DNA from: an uncultured Desulfuromonas sp.
GTDB taxonomy: Bacteria > Desulfobacterota > Desulfuromonadia > Desulfuromonadales > Desulfuromonadaceae
Assembly: GCF_963678835.1 (NCBI RefSeq)
Contig: NZ_OY787469.1
Coordinates: 372,001-436,000, forward strand
Direction of reading: 5' to 3'
DNA: 64,000 nt
Shown: positions 20,429 to 26,630 of the stretch, piece by piece
Numbering within the stretch: position 1 is the first letter of the stretch
Layout: every line of letters begins with the position of its first letter
Position numbers and translations under genes: made by a program
The notes under the pieces: model-generated
Seen by the model: only the letters and a program-made list of their open reading frames with translations
What the model was told of the DNA's origin: nothing
The model's database searches: none

Positions 20429-20446
20429 CATTCCCCATGCAGATAA

Positions 20447-20500
20447 CGACATCTTTGTCGAAACCAACAAGTTTCGTCGAAGAACTCCGTTAAACCGACA
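20447..20500. promoter_or_regulatory. TGTCG-type half-sites upstream of the sigma-54 promoter
   Basis: CGACA (20447-20451), TTTGTCGAA (20454-20462), TTCGTCGAA (20473-20481) and CGACA (20496-20500) cluster about 55-110 bp before the -24 element, where an NtrC-type activator would bind. The same TGTCGA core recurs before the opposing operon encoding a sigma-54 regulator (26590-26630). Confidence 0.45.
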
Positions 20501-20555
20501 CGTCATTGATATTTATAACCATCTGAAAAAACAGTATTTTTATCTTTTTTTCAAG

Positions 20556-20572
20556 TTGGCACACCGGTTGCT
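20556..20572 (+). promoter_or_regulatory. near-perfect sigma-54 promoter
   Basis: TTGGCACACCGGTTGCT fits YTGGCACGN4TTGCW at every position but one. The predicted transcription start near 20583 leaves about 45 nt before the small secreted protein gene. This is the best -24/-12 element in the window. Confidence 0.85.
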
Positions 20573-20627
20573 CATGTCTGAGGGTACAGCGCTGAAACCC
20601 CAACCTCTAACGTGAAAGGACATAGCA

Positions 20628-20975
20628 ATGACTGTGATGAATTCTGTAAAAATCGTTTCTGCTGTCGTACTGATGATGGCAATCACCTCTCTGCCCTATA
20701 CCGCTGATGCCAGCTCCCGCTTCCGTGGCGAAAGTGCCGGAACCGGCCTCTACTTGGTGGATACCGATGGTGACGGTATCGGCGATACCCGTCCGGAACC
20801 CGGTACCGGCATGGGTGCCAACGCAACCAATTTTGTCGATGCTGATGGTGATGGTGTGTGCGACACCTATGCAGCAGGTGGTCAGCAACTGCTCGACGGC
20901 TCGGGTGTTCCTGAAGATGCTCTGCAGCTTCAAACCCAGGAGCGGATCCGTCTGCGGACCCAATCCGGCCGTTAA
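20628..20975 (+). CDS. small secreted protein with two calcium-loop (DxDGDGxxD) motifs
   Basis: 115 aa with a signal peptide (hydrophobic 7-22, likely cleavage after TADA at about 28). The mature part holds two acidic loops, DTDGDGIGD (45-53) and DADGDGVCD (71-79), matching the calcium-binding pattern of EF-hand, dockerin and thrombospondin type 3 repeats. A Gly/Thr/Pro linker lies between them, and the C-terminus is Gln/Arg-rich. A lone Cys78 is present. The function is not recognised. ATG 20628 has AAAGGA eight bases upstream. It is directly behind the sigma-54 promoter, and a strong terminator follows seven bases after the stop, so it is probably the most abundant product of this transcription unit. 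Confidence 0.8.
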   Translation: MTVMNSVKIVSAVVLMMAITSLPYTADASSRFRGESAGTGLYLVDTDGDGIGDTRPEPGTGMGANATNFVDADGDGVCDTYAAGGQQLLDGSGVPEDALQLQTQERIRLRTQSGR

Positions 20976-20981
20976 TCGCAC

Positions 20982-21018
20982 AGCCGTTCCTCTCCGACGG
21001 GAGAGGAACGGCTTCTTT
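20982..21018 (+). terminator. intrinsic terminator after the small secreted protein gene
   Basis: Perfect 14-bp stem (20982-20995 with 21000-21013), 4-nt loop, followed by TCTTTTC. It separates the small gene from the barrel gene starting 27 bases later, so partial read-through would set the ratio of the two products. Confidence 0.85.
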
Positions 21019-21044
21019 TCACCCCCAAATCGAAAGAGCCCCCT

Positions 21045-22085
21045 ATGAAGCTGACCACACGTATTTGTCTCGTACTATGTGTCGTCCTGTTACCGACACT
21101 GTGCCTAGCAGACTCCACAGAAACTAACTGGCCCGAAGCCGTGCAACAATCACCGGAGACCAGTTGGGTCCATGGTGTCTCGGCACGCATCACCTATATG
21201 TGGCTGGATGAGACCGAATATCTCGAAGAAATTGACGATGATATCTATCGCTGGAAAGAGCGTAACCTGATGGTTCAGGTGGACAAAGCCCTTGGTAAAG
21301 CCCGGTTTGGACTCGGCTATATTGATGGCACCATCAAACAGGAAAACGAACTCTTTAACGATACCGATTTCGCCCTGACCCGCAAGGCACCCTTTGCCAA
21401 TTTTGACTATCAGTGGTCTCCCCATCTGCTCACCCGAGCCCGGTTGCGCTACGAGCAATTCAGCGACGACGGCAATTCCGGTTTTTACCAAGTGGGCGAT
21501 GACGAGGAGTTGTGGACCGGCTATGCCGTGGTCAGTTATCTCAATCAACAGTGGTGGGTGAATGTCAGCTATGCCCGCGAGCGCGATCCGGAACCGATCT
21601 ACGATGCCGCCAGTGACCGCGTTGAACTCGATATTACTGCTCAGGCCCTGACCGGCACCACTTTTGGTTGGGTGTGGACACCACAATGGGAAACCTCGGC
21701 CGGTATCTACTATGAAAGTTATGGCTCTGATCGTCCGGACCAGTTCAACTACACCGGCCAGGTGACCCATCAACCTGCCTGGTTCACGCCACTACGCGCC
21801 TCTCTGGGGGTCGGTTATTACACCGAAGAAAAAGATACCCTGATCAACCTAACGCTGAATTATCGCCATAAAATTGCTGAAGGTGTCGATTTCCAGCTAG
21901 AGTATCAACTTGAATACTCCGATGACGAGCAATCGCTACTCAATCAGGGTCAGGCGGTGATCCGCTACAGTTTTGCTGAGCACTGGAGTCTGGTAATACT
22001 GGGAGAATACAGTCGTGAATCAGGGGATGACAAAGATACCACCCTGTTTGCGGCGGGCAGTTTGGAGTACCGATTCGATTCGTAA
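21045..22085 (+). CDS. predicted outer-membrane beta-barrel protein (346 aa)
   Basis: Signal peptide (about 1-22, cleavage after LCLA) followed by alternating amphipathic strands rich in Tyr, Trp, Asp and Glu (for example YAVVSYLNQQWWVNVSYAR and LRASLGVGYYTEE). The end is SLEYRFDS, close to the aromatic C-terminal strand of barrel proteins. About 14-16 strands are plausible. No named family is recognised. It lies behind the small calcium-loop gene and its terminator, with only a weak AAAGAG ribosome site. The partner barrel of 338 aa is in the opposing operon. Confidence 0.75.
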   Translation: MKLTTRICLVLCVVLLPTLCLADSTETNWPEAVQQSPETSWVHGVSARITYMWLDETEYLEEIDDDIYRWKERNLMVQVDKALGKARFGLGYIDGTIKQENELFNDTDFALTRKAPFANFDYQWSPHLLTRARLRYEQFSDDGNSGFYQVGDDEELWTGYAVVSYLNQQWWVNVSYARERDPEPIYDAASDRVELDITAQALTGTTFGWVWTPQWETSAGIYYESYGSDRPDQFNYTGQVTHQPAWFTPLRASLGVGYYTEEKDTLINLTLNYRHKIAEGVDFQLEYQLEYSDDEQSLLNQGQAVIRYSFAEHWSLVILGEYSRESGDDKDTTLFAAGSLEYRFDS

Positions 22086-22205
22086 TTTTCTAGCTGTCCT
22101 GTTGTAAAAAGGGCAGCGCAGCCGATGGAAGGGCGACCAGAATGGTCGGCTTCGTTTACAACCCGGCGATTGTGCAAGGTTTTGGAAATCCTCCTGAGAA
22201 CCGGT

Positions 22206-22239
22206 AAGGGCCGGTGACTTACGTCACCGGCCCTTTTTA
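22206..22239 (+). terminator. intrinsic terminator after the barrel gene
   Basis: 13-bp stem (22206-22218 with 22223-22235), loop TTAC, then T residues. It ends rightward transcription of the barrel gene and faces the convergent regulator gene. The preceding 120 bases (22086-22205) hold no recognised gene. Confidence 0.8.
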
Positions 22240-22270
22240 TCGTCCGTCAGCAAGCCAGCGCCTGCCGCAC

Positions 22271-23614
22271 TTATTTCAGGTCCTCTTTATTGAGCTTGTA
22301 TTTGGTCATTTTATAGCGCAGTACCCGCTCGCTGATGCCAAGAGCCTCGGCAGCACGGGTCTGTACCCCATGATACTGGCGCAGGGTCTCGAGCAACATC
22401 TGCCGCTCCACCGCTTCCACCCGTTCGGTCAACAGCCCGGAGTTGTTTTCCGGTTGGGGCTGTTGCAACAAGTGAGCGGGCAAATCAACCCGGCGAATCA
22501 CGGGACTGCGCACCAGGGTGGCCAGGCGTTGAATCAGATGCTCCAGCTCACGGACATTACCGGGATAATCGTATTTGATCAAGGCATCCAGGGCTGCAGG
22601 TTCAATCTGAATCGGTCGCAGCGCATATTGTTCAAGAAAGTTTTCCACCAGCATGGGAATATCTTCACGGCGCTGGCGCAATGGCGGAATCTGCATTTCA
22701 AACACGTTCAACCGATAATAGAGATCTTCGCGAAACGTCCCTTCCTGAACCATTTTAGGTAGATCACAGTTGGTTGCAACCAACACCCGTGCATCCACTT
22801 CGCGCTCCAGCTCAGCGCCGACAGGACAGATCTTTTTTTCCTGCAGAGCACGCAACAGTTTGGCCTGCAGGGCCAGTGGCAATTCACCGATCTCATCGAG
22901 AAACAGGGTGCCGCCCTGGGCAGCCTCAAAACGTCCGCTGCGACGCGATGTCGCGCCGGTGAACGATCCTTTTTCATGTCCAAACAGCTCGGACTCAAAC
23001 AGATTGTCCGGCAGAGCAGCACAGTTTACCTCGACAAACGGGCCATGGCTCCGTTCGCTGAGCTGATGGAGCAGGCGGGCAATACGCTCTTTTCCGGTGC
23101 CGGTTTCGCCATGAATCAACACGGTCCACGGGCTGCGCGCCACCCGGCGCACCAGTGATAACAGATGTTGCATGGCTTCGCTGCTTGCCGCCACCGGCAA
23201 CGGCAGTTCCTCGTCTTCAAGGTCCTGCTCCATCTCACTGAGATCTTGCTCGACAAACTGTTGTTGCTCGCAACGTTCAATAAGCTGAGCGAGCTCAGTA
23301 AGATCCACCGGCTTTTCAAGAAAGTCACTGGCACCAAGTTTCATCACCTTGACCGCCGTTTCCACCGAACCAAAGGCAGTGATCAGGATCACTCGCAACA
23401 ACGGATTTGATTCCCGCAGCCGCTCCAGTACTTCATCCCCATTCAAACCGGGCATACATAAATCCATCAATACCAGACTGATCGGGTAACGGGCACACAG
23501 CTCCAAAGCCTCTTCGCCGTTGGAGGCGGTCAGAACTTTGTAACCGCGCTTATGCAGAAAACCCTGCAGCATTTCCCGTTGCACTTGTTCATCATCAACG
23601 ACAAGGATGGTCAT
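22271..23614 (-). CDS. sigma-54-dependent response regulator (NtrC family)
   Basis: 447 aa: receiver with phosphoacceptor Asp51 (LMDLCMPG), AAA+ domain with Walker A GETGTGKE (169-176), loop GSFTGA (216-221; Ser replaces the usual Ala of GAFTGA, a tolerated variant) and LFLDEIGELPL, then a Fis-type helix-turn-helix (AAEALGISERVLRYKMTKY). Its ATG overlaps the stop of the kinase gene by four bases. Likely targets are the two promoters with TGTCGA repeats at about 20.5 and 26.6 kb, inferred from position and shared motif. Confidence 0.92.
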   Translation of the reverse strand: MTILVVDDEQVQREMLQGFLHKRGYKVLTASNGEEALELCARYPISLVLMDLCMPGLNGDEVLERLRESNPLLRVILITAFGSVETAVKVMKLGASDFLEKPVDLTELAQLIERCEQQQFVEQDLSEMEQDLEDEELPLPVAASSEAMQHLLSLVRRVARSPWTVLIHGETGTGKERIARLLHQLSERSHGPFVEVNCAALPDNLFESELFGHEKGSFTGATSRRSGRFEAAQGGTLFLDEIGELPLALQAKLLRALQEKKICPVGAELEREVDARVLVATNCDLPKMVQEGTFREDLYYRLNVFEMQIPPLRQRREDIPMLVENFLEQYALRPIQIEPAALDALIKYDYPGNVRELEHLIQRLATLVRSPVIRRVDLPAHLLQQPQPENNSGLLTERVEAVERQMLLETLRQYHGVQTRAAEALGISERVLRYKMTKYKLNKEDLK

Positions 23615-25149
23615 ATTTTTCTCTTCAGGGGGAGTTGGACCAACGCCCGGAAACAGTCATTTTCGACAATCGACAATGTGATCTGCCCACCGTGAGCGAC
23701 GGCAATCTTGCGTACCAGGGTCAAGCCGAGTCCGGTTTGTCGGTCCTTGGTTGTAAAATAGGGTTCAAGCAGATTGTTGAGATCACCACTGATGTCATGA
23801 GTGCGATTTTCAATACTCAGTTTGGCCTGCCCCTGTTCCGTCAGCAGGCTGACACTGACAAAGCCGCCGCGCGGTTGCGCCTCCAGGGCATTTTTGAGCA
23901 GATTTTCCACCAGCTGGCCAAGCAAACCGCCATCGGCCTCAAATTCGATCGATTGCAGCTGGCTGTTAACACGGATGTGGTGGGCATCAAATTGCGGTCG
24001 ATACAGATTGACAATGCGCTCAATCAGCTCATGGAAGGTGACGTTTTTCATCTCGGGTTTCAATGGCAGGGCGTAGCGCTGCAGGCCATGGACAATCTCG
24101 TTGGTCCGCTTCACAGCATCGCTCATGGCCACCAGCAGCTCTTCGTGCTCCCCTTCAAGACCGCTGGACTCCATCTGCAAACGCTGTAAGCCCATACTGA
24201 TGGCATTGAGCGGATTGCGAATTTCGTGGCTAATGGTGGCCGCAGCCCGGCCCAGAGAAGCGTCTTCACGCTGGACAGCCAACTGCTGATGCAGTTGCCA
24301 CAGATCTTCTACATGGCGGTTCTGATAACGGTACAGTTGCCAGGAAAGCAGCAGGCCCGCAGCAAACAGAAAACCGCTGAAAATGAAAAATTCCTGCCAC
24401 AGTCCAGTGATACGCTCATTGAGACTGGTCGATTCCACTTCCAGCAGCAGGGTCTGCTGACCAAGGACAATCTGTCGCTGTGACGCTGAAGATCTCTGAC
24501 TGTACAACTCATTTTGACGGGTCATTTTTGCCGTCGGCTCAAGGCGCAGACTGTCGATACCGGCAAGACGACTCAGGGTGGCCAACAGTTGCTTAACCCC
24601 CATCTGCTCCTTCAATTGTTCCAAAGACCGAGCCGGCAGTCCCACGGCAATCAGCCGCGCACTGTCGGGAACTTTCCACAGCAGGATATATTCATGGCGT
24701 TGCTCGCGGTGAATCAACAGATGCTTCTGCTGGCTGACATCGAACAGCGGCTGCTCAAACCAGGCGGGCGGCGACATCACGGCTCCCTCGCCGGGTCTCT
24801 TGATCCAGATTCCCTCAAGCCCGTTCTCTTGGGCATAGGCTGCGAGTTCACGCGCATTGAACGGCTCCACCTCATCAAGGTAGGCGATAAACCGGGCGAT
24901 ATTGACAAGAAAATCACTGACGATCTGTTCAACAACTTCCTGGGAGCGACTGGCTGCTTTGACATTGGTGGCAACGATTTCAGCCACCAGTTGCGCATGT
25001 TCATTGACGTGTTCTTCAAACGCATGGCGCGTCTGCGCCATTTGCCAGGAAAAATAGCCCAGAACCATGGCAACCAGCACAGCAAAAACAATCAGATTGG
25101 CCTGCCACAGGACAAAGCGGCCCTGATCTTTGATTTCTCTGGGACTCAA
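23611..25149 (-). CDS. membrane histidine kinase
   Basis: 512 aa. Helices at about 14-34 and 254-274 enclose a roughly 220-residue periplasmic sensor. The DHp domain has His308 in ATISHEIRNPLNAIS, and the ATPase domain has the N box (NLLKNALEAQP), a poorly kept G1 region (IENRTHDISGD), F box (LEPYFTTKD) and G2 box (TGLGLTLV). It overlaps the Gly/His-rich gene upstream and the regulator gene downstream by four bases each, so kinase, regulator and envelope proteins are translated together. The ligand is unknown; an envelope signal is suggested by the neighbours. Confidence 0.9.
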   Translation of the reverse strand: MSPREIKDQGRFVLWQANLIVFAVLVAMVLGYFSWQMAQTRHAFEEHVNEHAQLVAEIVATNVKAASRSQEVVEQIVSDFLVNIARFIAYLDEVEPFNARELAAYAQENGLEGIWIKRPGEGAVMSPPAWFEQPLFDVSQQKHLLIHREQRHEYILLWKVPDSARLIAVGLPARSLEQLKEQMGVKQLLATLSRLAGIDSLRLEPTAKMTRQNELYSQRSSASQRQIVLGQQTLLLEVESTSLNERITGLWQEFFIFSGFLFAAGLLLSWQLYRYQNRHVEDLWQLHQQLAVQREDASLGRAAATISHEIRNPLNAISMGLQRLQMESSGLEGEHEELLVAMSDAVKRTNEIVHGLQRYALPLKPEMKNVTFHELIERIVNLYRPQFDAHHIRVNSQLQSIEFEADGGLLGQLVENLLKNALEAQPRGGFVSVSLLTEQGQAKLSIENRTHDISGDLNNLLEPYFTTKDRQTGLGLTLVRKIAVAHGGQITLSIVENDCFRALVQLPLKRKI

Positions 25150-25553
25150 TGGTGCCCCCGGCCTTGACCTTGCCCATGGCCCTGTCCTCGACCAGCCCCC
25201 AGTCCACCTCCTCGGTGGCTCTTGCCGTTTTGGGCTTTACGCAGCCGGGAACGGACACCGGTCTTGTCGTTGTTGGCGGCACGTCCGAAGGGGTTTTTCA
25301 CGTTTCCGAAAACAAACGCTGACCCTAGGTCGCCGGACTCGTTTTTCACCAGAATCGTTTCACCCAGGCGGATATCGGCAGGGATGCTTTCAACCTGGAC
25401 GGTCACTTCGCGGATGGTTTCATTTTCATCCATCACTTCAAGCGTCACAGCACCCTTCTGGCGATCCACATCCATAACACGCCCGTGGAGTTCCGCGGCC
25501 TGCGCGGAGATCACCCCGCCCATCAGGATTAAAACAACCAATATAATCCGCAT
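25146..25553 (-). CDS. secreted small protein with Gly/His/Gln-rich tail
   Basis: 135 aa. Signal peptide 1-19 (MRIILVVLILMGGVISAQA), then a beta-rich domain (about 20-90) of OB-fold-like appearance similar to DUF5666-type proteins, then a basic linker and a low-complexity tail (110-135) with GGGLGAG and GHGQGQGRGHH. The tail could bind metal or a polyanion; that is inference. It starts inside the 3' end of the barrel gene (25-bp overlap) and ends inside the kinase start. Not assigned to a named family with confidence. Confidence 0.7.
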   Translation of the reverse strand: MRIILVVLILMGGVISAQAAELHGRVMDVDRQKGAVTLEVMDENETIREVTVQVESIPADIRLGETILVKNESGDLGSAFVFGNVKNPFGRAANNDKTGVRSRLRKAQNGKSHRGGGLGAGRGQGHGQGQGRGHH

Positions 25554-26545
25554 ATCGCCACCTTTTTCGTATAATCACCGTCTGAAAAATCAGAGTTTTG
25601 CCAGATCTGTTGCATCTGCACATAAGCGCTCAGATTTTTATGCCATTGCCAGTCCAACCGAACCGCCGCAGTCCATTGACGGTCATCACTCTCGTCATAA
25701 TCACGTGCCAGCCAACTGCCCCACAATTCGCCGCTCATGCTGGAGGTAAAAAAAATCTGCCAGCCATGTTCAACACCATAGCCCTGGTACGATTCCCAAG
25801 ACAGGGTGGAGTCGTTATCCTGATAAAACAATTTCACATCACACAACAGATCCGCTGTGAAACGGTACTCCCCTTGACCAATGATTCCGAACTCGCGGTC
25901 ACGACGCGATTCGTTGATCTCGACCAGAGTTCCCCGCGTTGTCGTTTGTCCATTGTTACCATTGCCATTGCCGTGGCCACCTGGAGTTTCCGTCTCTTCG
26001 CAAATCGTCGGCACCCAGTTGTACCCCTGACGGTAGTCAGCATAGCGAAAGTAACCGCTCACCCCCAGGCTGATCTGTTCATTAATAAACCGTTCAACCT
26101 GGCACCCCACCTCAAGGGCATCGAACTCGTCTTCGCCAACCAGATCGTCGCGGTAGGAACGCCCTTCGACATAAAACAGGCTGTGCCAGATGCCGTCTTG
26201 CCAGCGTTTGAGGCAGGAGGCTCCGAGTAAAAATTCCTGACGGTCCTCCAGCCGGGTAAAAGCATCGTATGACGCCCAACCATAACCCTCAACATACAGG
26301 TCCGGTTGATCGACAAGTGGTTGATACAACTGCACCTGGTAACGCATGAAAGGCGACCCTTGTTTGTCGGTACTGGCGGCCACATTATCATCATAACCGC
26401 ACGCCAGATCGACTCGGCCAGCCAAGGCCAGACAGTGTTGCGGGATCAGGCTGGTCAGAACCAGCAGCGTTCCAGCCACAATCGGAGCGGAACGCCACCA
26501 TGTTTTAAAGATACGGATGATACAGGTATAAAAAGCAAAAGCCAT
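25529..26545 (-). CDS. predicted outer-membrane beta-barrel protein (338 aa)
   Basis: Hydrophobic signal region followed by GRVDLACGYDDNVAAS and many amphipathic Tyr/Trp-rich strands, ending in AICGLYWLF with the C-terminal Phe typical of outer-membrane barrels. A Gly/Asn-rich loop (GGHGNGNGNNGQTTTRG) sits in the middle. The start is uncertain: ATG 26545 lies inside the sigma-54-like -12 element and has no ribosome site, whereas a downstream GTG at 26479 would give a shorter signal peptide with little positive charge. First gene of the leftward barrel/secreted protein/kinase/regulator operon. Confidence 0.75.
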   Translation of the reverse strand: MAFAFYTCIIRIFKTWWRSAPIVAGTLLVLTSLIPQHCLALAGRVDLACGYDDNVAASTDKQGSPFMRYQVQLYQPLVDQPDLYVEGYGWASYDAFTRLEDRQEFLLGASCLKRWQDGIWHSLFYVEGRSYRDDLVGEDEFDALEVGCQVERFINEQISLGVSGYFRYADYRQGYNWVPTICEETETPGGHGNGNGNNGQTTTRGTLVEINESRRDREFGIIGQGEYRFTADLLCDVKLFYQDNDSTLSWESYQGYGVEHGWQIFFTSSMSGELWGSWLARDYDESDDRQWTAAVRLDWQWHKNLSAYVQMQQIWQNSDFSDGDYTKKVAICGLYWLF

Positions 26546-26550
26546 TCCAA
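26534..26550 (-). promoter_or_regulatory. candidate sigma-54 promoter for the barrel/kinase/regulator operon
   Basis: On the minus strand TTGGAATGGCTTTTGCT has the invariant GG-N10-GC, a perfect TTTTGCT -12 region and two mismatches in the -24 half. It overlaps the first possible ATG of the barrel gene, so if real the protein must start downstream. TGTCGA repeats lie 40-80 bp upstream. Confidence 0.5.
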
Positions 26551-26589
26551 GCCACCAAATGGGTTGTTTTAGGAGATAAGCCTCTCTAT

Positions 26590-26630
26590 TGTCGACATTT
26601 TTGCCGGATTTTGTCGACTTTTTTGTCGAA
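26590..26630. promoter_or_regulatory. TGTCGA repeats (candidate activator sites)
   Basis: TGTCGACA (26590-26597, palindromic), TGTCGAC (26612-26618) and TGTCGAA (26624-26630) lie in the gap between the chaperone terminator and the barrel gene. Start-to-start spacing is 22 and 12 bp, near two and one helical turns. The core matches the half-sites before the 20.6-kb promoter. Confidence 0.45.

Follow-up and report, generated by a model that had tools for sequence, protein, structure and literature searches.

The locus and its genes

The stretch analysed here (the window) comprises 64,000 nucleotides of contig NZ_OY787469.1 (positions 372,001 to 436,000 of the forward strand) of an uncultured Desulfuromonas sp. 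(assembly GCF_963678835.1) and belongs to a genome of 4.5 Mb that is assembled in two contigs. Between positions 20446 and 26630 it carries a module of six genes in two convergent units that face each other. The rightward unit consists of efp, which encodes a small secreted protein with calcium-type loops, and of the gene for an outer-membrane barrel (barrel 1). The leftward unit encodes, in this order, a second barrel (barrel 2), a secreted Gly/His-rich protein (GH), a histidine kinase (HK) and a response regulator (RR); it is tightly packed, with overlapping gene ends. An earlier reading of the letters (the original prediction) had proposed a sigma-54 envelope module with a dedicated two-component system, possibly responding to calcium or a metal, and all six open reading frames (ORFs) on which that proposal was built are present where it had placed them. 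The features of the module are as follows.

20446..20461, + strand: operator dyad ACGACATCTTTGTCGA, core CGACA-N4-TGTCG, before the first unit (0/300 shuffles at <=1 mismatch)
20473-20480: operator half-site TTCGTCGA before the first unit
20556..20572, + strand: sigma-54 promoter (-24/-12) TTGGCACACCGGTTGCT of the efp unit (13/13 scored positions; 0/300 shuffles as good)
20628..20975, + strand: efp, small secreted protein with two calcium-type DxDxDGxxD loops, 115 amino acids (aa)
21045..22085, + strand: barrel 1, 16-strand outer-membrane barrel by predicted structure, PelB/BcsC/PgaA-like, 346 aa
22271..23614, - strand: RR, NtrC-type response regulator with SERVLRYK recognition helix, 447 aa (Pfam REC, Sigma54_activat, HTH_8)
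23611..25149, - strand: HK, histidine kinase with predicted periplasmic PDC/Cache-like domain, 512 aa
25146..25553, - strand: GH, secreted protein with D-K-TGVRSR motif and Gly/His/Arg tail, 135 aa
25529..26545, - strand: ORF of barrel 2 (338 aa; probable gene 25529..26479), BBP2_2-like, with Gly-rich central loop
26534..26550, - strand: sigma-54 promoter TTGGAATGGCTTTTGCT of the second unit (11/13; 3/300 shuffles as good)
26592-26607: weaker dyad before the second unit
26614..26629, - strand: operator dyad TCGACAAAAAAGTCGA before the second unit, one mismatch in the core

The sigma-54 element of barrel 2 overlaps the first ATG of its ORF, so that translation probably begins at the GTG at position 26479, 66 bases further in.

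The regulator has the three parts of an NtrC-type activator, a receiver, a sigma-54 AAA+ domain and a Fis-type helix-turn-helix (Pfam Response_reg 4e-31, Sigma54_activat 2.6e-71 and HTH_8 6e-13). GAFTGA is the name of the motif by which such activators contact sigma-54; this loop reads GSFTGA in the window and GAFTGA in several orthologues. The kinase matches HisKA and HATPase_c; for its periplasmic part the model, which is of modest confidence, gives a sensor fold of the PDC/Cache type. Barrel 1 is predicted to start with 41 residues without confident structure (residues 1-41), which are followed by the 16-strand barrel. The original statement that none of the four envelope proteins is recognised applies to GH, which matches no curated family (no Pfam and no ZraP match) and has a best hit against the PDB of E 0.083, which is not significant. 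It fails for barrel 2, which matches PF10082 (BBP2_2) weakly, with 24.6 bits against a cut-off of 23.7. A PDB sequence search returned nothing significant for either barrel, and the idea that the two are relatives was rejected (hhalign probability 1.2%).

A shared operator and sigma-54 promoters

Sigma-54-like promoters on both units had been noticed from the start, and the sites were recovered with 13/13 positions before efp and 11/13 before barrel 2. The TGTCGA-type repeats reported along with them turned out to form a dyad, TCGACA-N4-TGTCGA, at both units. Its exact 14-base core, CGACA-N4-TGTCG, has a single copy in the window, at position 20447. The hallmark of NtrC-type control, an upstream dyad together with a -24/-12 promoter at the target genes, is thereby found at the module, as judged from sequence alone.

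The same arrangement recurs in the orthologous loci of the family. Fifteen promoter regions could be compared, eight of efp and seven of barrel 2 (the eighth barrel-2 region lies off its contig), and the dyad was found within one mismatch in all 15, which was matched by at most 1/300 dinucleotide shuffles per region. The core is exact in 8/8 efp and 4/7 barrel-2 regions, and the remaining three have one mismatch. The distance from dyad to promoter is 109-110 bp in five efp regions (109 bp in the window) and 153-164 bp in the other three, and 76-90 bp in the seven barrel-2 regions. The efp promoter scores 12-13 in 7/8 orthologues; that of L026 scores 9, and 22/300 shuffles are as good. The promoters of barrel 2 score 10-12 of 13 in the seven orthologous regions when GC at -12 is not required. 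With this requirement, L022 and L025 are no better than shuffles (92/300 and 232/300), and the sites counted for these two come from the scan without the GC demand and with a later start.

Four other sites of the efp type (<=1 mismatch) in the same genome served as a control. They precede an ammonium transporter, a receiver-domain gene, an aldehyde dehydrogenase and a transporter (ORFs named by reading), and none has a dyad with <=1 mismatch in the surrounding 3 kb. Near-identical sigma-54 sites lie at position 1501 of L178, L180 and L181 (ammonium transporter, receiver-domain gene and aldehyde dehydrogenase), with no dyad.

Conservation within the family

A search of 98 genomes of the family and order (E<=0.001) matched barrel 1 in eight genomes and barrel 2 in the identical eight, the own genome included. 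All eight belong to the window's family, 6/14 genomes of which are without both barrels. The orthologous loci of the other seven genomes were fetched and the six genes are clustered in every one (7/7); in L020 the contig end truncates barrel 2, and in L022 barrel 1 is in pieces. Co-conservation, which the original prediction had named as its first check, is thus borne out, and together with the same dyad at both units it upholds the description as one sigma-54 envelope module. Neither of the two outcomes that would have spoken against the prediction, a lack of co-conservation or separate signals and regulators for the units, was encountered.

An opposing explanation takes the two units as unrelated chance neighbours with ordinary sigma-54 promoters. 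Promoters of the same type are indeed found elsewhere in the genome, but the joint presence in the same 8/98 genomes, clustered each time, and the shared operator make this hardly credible.

Among the envelope proteins efp is the best conserved, its identity being 54-57% even in those members of the family that are furthest removed, followed by barrel 1 (40-42%), barrel 2 (25-30%) and GH (24-30%). In the locus of one family genome (G008), barrel 1 and RR are separated by transposase genes (L024:8714-9990), which read as IS3-like.

A kinase-regulator core across the phylum

Outside the family, the GH profile was matched in 26/395 genomes of the phylum (E<=0.01; 13 families, own genome included). 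Twenty of the 25 other GH loci were fetched, from 10 families. In 20/20 of them GH stands directly before a kinase that matches the profile of the window family's HK: 19 of these do so at E<=1e-110, the twentieth is cut by its contig and reaches 3e-33, and other kinases in the loci reach at best 4e-26. RR is the next gene after HK in 18/20, the contig ending in the other two. A relative of barrel 2 is present in 11/20 loci, directly upstream of GH in nine, and covers 4 of the 10 further families; barrel 1 and efp gave no match at E<=0.1 in the 20 loci. The two-component system can therefore no longer be called dedicated to the module: GH, HK and RR are a core found in 10 further families, and efp and barrel 1 would be its lineage-specific target.

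Two protein motifs mark this core. The GH motif D-x-TG-[VM]-[RK]-x-R is present in 21/21 aligned sequences, most of which also have the Gly/His/Arg-rich tail. The helix SER[VA]LRYK occurs in 17/17 complete distant regulators (one more is cut), in 7/7 family regulators and in that of the window, and not in two control NtrC-type regulators.

The operator travels with the core. An exact core dyad was found in 15/20 GH loci (216.8 kb), one copy each, with 0.1 expected from shuffles, and in 0/18 control loci (178.6 kb; 0.1 expected). In L225 the copy falls inside the HK gene and could be a chance occurrence; the other 14 come from 8/10 families. A -24-type element (11-13 of 13) follows 13/14 of these non-coding dyads at 85-89, 97 or 109-111 bp, in L216 and L222 only on the side of a divergent DUF2202 gene, and in L224 such an element lies near 293 bp from the dyad. 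At random positions of the GH loci, an element of at least 11/13 at 60-170 bp was met in 43/4200 cases (~1%).

Varied secreted proteins and the calcium loops

The genes between operator and GH vary among the distant loci. Among their products are DUF1104 proteins (over the cut-off in L218 with E 2.8e-7, under it in L209 with 0.0022 and in L206 with 0.07), a secreted protein of the 'YGIGP' type (7 aligned) and Gly/Asp-rich proteins that carry DGTG motifs. A divergent DUF2202 protein is encoded beside the core in L216 (3.7e-59) and L222 (5e-55). In G006, a genome of the window's genus, a DUF2202 gene has the exact dyad upstream with GTGGCACATAACTTGAA at 110 bp, and the same 17 bases lie at 111 bp before the core-adjacent DUF2202 gene of L222, which is from another family. 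After RR, L206 (983-2038) and L209 (2632-3657), both from one family, encode a CsgG-domain lipoprotein with a peptidoglycan-binding domain.

In the window's family an operator precedes efp. All eight efp sequences have two DxDxDG/NG loops with conserved acidic ligands, and D45, D47, D49 and D53 as well as D71, D73 and D79 are invariant; there was no Pfam match over the cut-off, EF-hand, dockerin and TSP3 included. Residue 78, inside the second loop, is an invariant Cys and the only cysteine in six of the eight sequences.

The efp profile was matched in 21/395 genomes (E<=0.01). Besides the own genome only G252 is a strong match (8e-25); the others are weak (E 5e-6 or worse) and lie mostly over the loops. 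Eight of these loci were fetched along with that of G252 (L051), and the exact dyad is present in one of the nine, L054. It belongs to G126, a genome with the core in L223 and the calcium-loop gene on another contig. The dyad there is followed 89 bp on by TTGGCACATTCCTTGGA, which has GG in place of GC at -12. Taken with the dyad at efp in the window, this makes calcium-loop proteins look like regulon members in two families. In L055 and L056, which hold relatives in genomes with the core, a sigma-54-like site was found and no dyad. The promoter-region test of the efp-like loci covered a subset, from which a signal-peptide filter had set aside L052, L054 and L058. The strong match in L051 (4712-5123; G252 is of another family) is an isolated efp-like gene that is interrupted by an in-frame TAA and preceded by a sigma-54-like TTGGCATACATATTGAA; the contig is 7.4 kb long, and no barrel was noticed on it. 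L053 (G291) and L057 (G150) encode related stand-alone, lipoprotein-like calcium-loop proteins (DxNGDGxCD) in an unrelated setting, without the dyad.

These data bear on the calcium-responsive surface system that the original prediction had offered as one reading. The two calcium-type loops of efp, with their conserved ligand residues, speak for it. Nothing, however, ties calcium to the sensor, whose modelled PDC/Cache-type fold does not point to this ion, and the small secreted proteins beside the core in the distant loci read have no such loops. We consider this explanation quite improbable.

Comparison with known systems

In kind, the system is a sigma-54 two-component envelope response, and its mode of action may be ZraPSR-like. 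ZraPSR of Escherichia coli is induced by zinc and has ZraP as a modulator. With it and with other AtoSC/ZraSR-type systems, the present one has in common a membrane kinase, an NtrC-type regulator, an upstream dyad, -24/-12 promoters, a small secreted protein encoded beside the kinase and likely autoregulation. It is not ZraPSR, because HK and RR score far under the curated cut-offs (119 bits against 479 and 370.6 against 760, with AtoS and AtoC as best matches) and GH is of no curated family. A further difference is that the apparent regulon here takes in barrels and several unrelated secreted families.

A Zra-like metal or envelope-stress response, in which zinc or another metal would be sensed and GH would be a metal-binding periplasmic modulator, could still be proposed from the common architecture of kinase, sigma-54 regulator and small secreted protein, from the fact that HK and RR score on the ZraS and ZraR models at all, and from the His residues in many GH tails. 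The distance of these scores from the cut-offs, the better matches to AtoS and AtoC, the lack of a ZraP match and the absence of His from the tails of some GH members make it a rather doubtful alternative.

For barrel 1, the predicted fold resembles the 16-strand export barrels of exopolysaccharide systems (PelB, BcsC, PgaA). It differs from them in being a stand-alone protein of 346 aa without a TPR part, at 7-10% sequence identity, in having a small secreted protein as partner, and in having no synthase in the module. One possible function is a port for an exopolysaccharide matrix, in which barrel 1 would pass the polysaccharide and the calcium-loop and Gly/His proteins would cross-link the matrix at the surface. 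A polysaccharide synthase was looked for among the six genes of the module only, and none is there. Barrel 1 has no TPR match in Pfam and none to BCSC_C or PgaA at E<=1, and likeness of fold alone shows no function; a matrix port is accordingly rather unlikely.

A different comparison is with the Slam/type XI secretion pairs, in which, as here, a barrel is encoded beside one small secreted protein. Barrel 1 could then be a dedicated exporter that carries efp over the outer membrane in a Slam-like way, although it would be of another barrel family and lacks the TPR domain. The gene of barrel 1 and efp are neighbours in the window, in all seven loci fetched from the family (7/7) and in L029, a distant locus that has no orthologous HK, RR or GH. 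On the other side, there is no SlipAM (DUF560) Pfam match at E<=1, and the exit of efp from the periplasm is itself putative. We regard dedicated export as about as improbable as the matrix port. Barrel 2 passes the cut-off of the BBP2_2 (PF10082) putative porins and differs from these in its Gly-rich central loop and in being encoded in a kinase-regulator operon.

In L029 (7058-11819), from a distant metagenome-assembled genome (MAG), the neighbours of the efp-barrel 1 pair are a DUF6502 gene and the genes of a DUF5666 lipoprotein and of another barrel-like protein, which has a Gly-rich loop. An origin of GH from DUF5666, prompted by this locus, was dropped: no small protein fitted the loop pattern in the 18 DUF6502/DUF5666 loci fetched, the two matches being long (416 and 476 aa), and the profile comparison gave weak values (hhalign against PF18914, probability 5% with 8 GH rows and 24% with 21 rows).

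No published description of the system was found in the searched literature, the scope of which left out figures, supplements and most subscription papers (PMC3162934 and PMC7762298 are among those consulted). The letters TGTCG and CGACA do not appear in the main texts of PMC4641369 and PMC3333781.

A proposed recurrent sigma-54-dependent envelope regulon

A core found across the phylum, an operator and a recognition helix that accompany it, and secreted targets that vary from locus to locus together suggest that the module represents, with fair probability, the form which an envelope regulon under sigma-54, recurrent across the phylum, takes in one family. The gene order, the operator, the promoters, their spacing, the helix and the conservation of all these are read from the sequences themselves.

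How such a regulon would work can be sketched. The periplasmic PDC/Cache-like domain of HK would sense an envelope signal, and GH, as the secreted product of the same operon, may tune this sensing. Phosphorylated RR would bind the dyad, contact the sigma-54 polymerase by looping and activate its own operon together with a payload of small secreted proteins. In the window's family, the payload would be the acidic calcium-loop protein and the neighbouring barrel 1, which is most likely the outer-membrane port or anchor of efp, shaped like the exopolysaccharide export ports and lacking their TPR part. The outcome would be an altered cell surface under some envelope condition. The signal and the role of barrel 1 (port for efp, polysaccharide port or plain porin) are the most uncertain parts of this scheme.

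A bolder form of the proposal can be put forward only tentatively, and we would not expect it to hold in full. It sees a phylum-wide system whose sensing core (secreted D-x-TGVR protein, PDC kinase and SERVLRYK regulator) drives exchangeable secreted payloads through one operator; here the payload would be a calcium-loop protein that has a TPR-less barrel of the PelB/PgaA type to itself for export or anchoring, which would make this a new kind of dedicated outer-membrane route.

The recurrent regulon would link GH, the YGIGP-type protein, DUF1104, DUF2202, the calcium-loop proteins and two barrel families by one regulator and one DNA tag. The roles of these families, which have no assigned function, would become testable together, and a signal, once found, would inform on each of them. 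From the operator and its spacing to the promoter the regulon could be predicted in further genomes of the phylum, and the question of how TPR-less barrels choose their cargo could be put to a simple pair, one such barrel and the small secreted protein encoded beside it.

Points against the regulon and dyads away from the module

Several observations weigh against a recurrent regulon. Barrel 1 is almost restricted to one family: it was found in the own genome only among the 395 phylum genomes, and a pattern-limited scan of a collection of 84,980 genomes returned four loci, which include Desulfuromonas sp. BM513, one Desulfuromonadaceae MAG and one Desulfuromonadales MAG. L029 has the efp-barrel 1 pair but neither the operator nor an orthologous HK, RR or GH, an unrelated hybrid kinase lying nearby, so that the pair can live without this control. 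The exact operator is missing from 5/20 GH loci; of these, L211, L213 and L221 are cut near the head of the unit (as is L225, which has its exact copy in the HK gene), and L219 and L220 are not cut, L220 having a one-mismatch copy. GC at -12 is present in 6/13 of the distant promoter-like elements, and the other seven have GA or GT. Six of the 20 GH loci come from one family, so that the loci are not all independent, and the sensor model of HK is weak.

Exact dyads are, in addition, not confined to the module. The 16-base form has 20 copies in the eight family genomes, against 2 for a control pattern, and six of the 20 are at the module; in the own genome there are two, both away from it. All 14 non-module copies were fetched, and 10 lie inside an ORF of at least 120 aa and four outside. 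Of the 14, one has a -24-type element of 11/13 at 60-170 bp, namely the copy of L079, which is found ahead of a DUF2202 gene (Pfam E 4e-45); in nine loci, such an element was met at 31/3600 random positions. With one mismatch allowed, the own genome has 34 dyads, both module sites included, against 15 for the reversed control pattern, which is too many to be called a regulon without a promoter filter.

A minor-pilin/PilY1-like operon with an exact dyad in G000 and G008 was considered as a further regulon member and rejected, and it was not counted as evidence. The dyad sits inside a longer palindrome, the -24-like element (10/13) is more than 200 bp away, and no exact or one-mismatch dyad lies near the homologues in G013 and G009. 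In G000, the window's own genome, the pilW gene of this operon (L076:7474-12357; C1 ~2136473) is split by an insertion element, and it is whole in G008.

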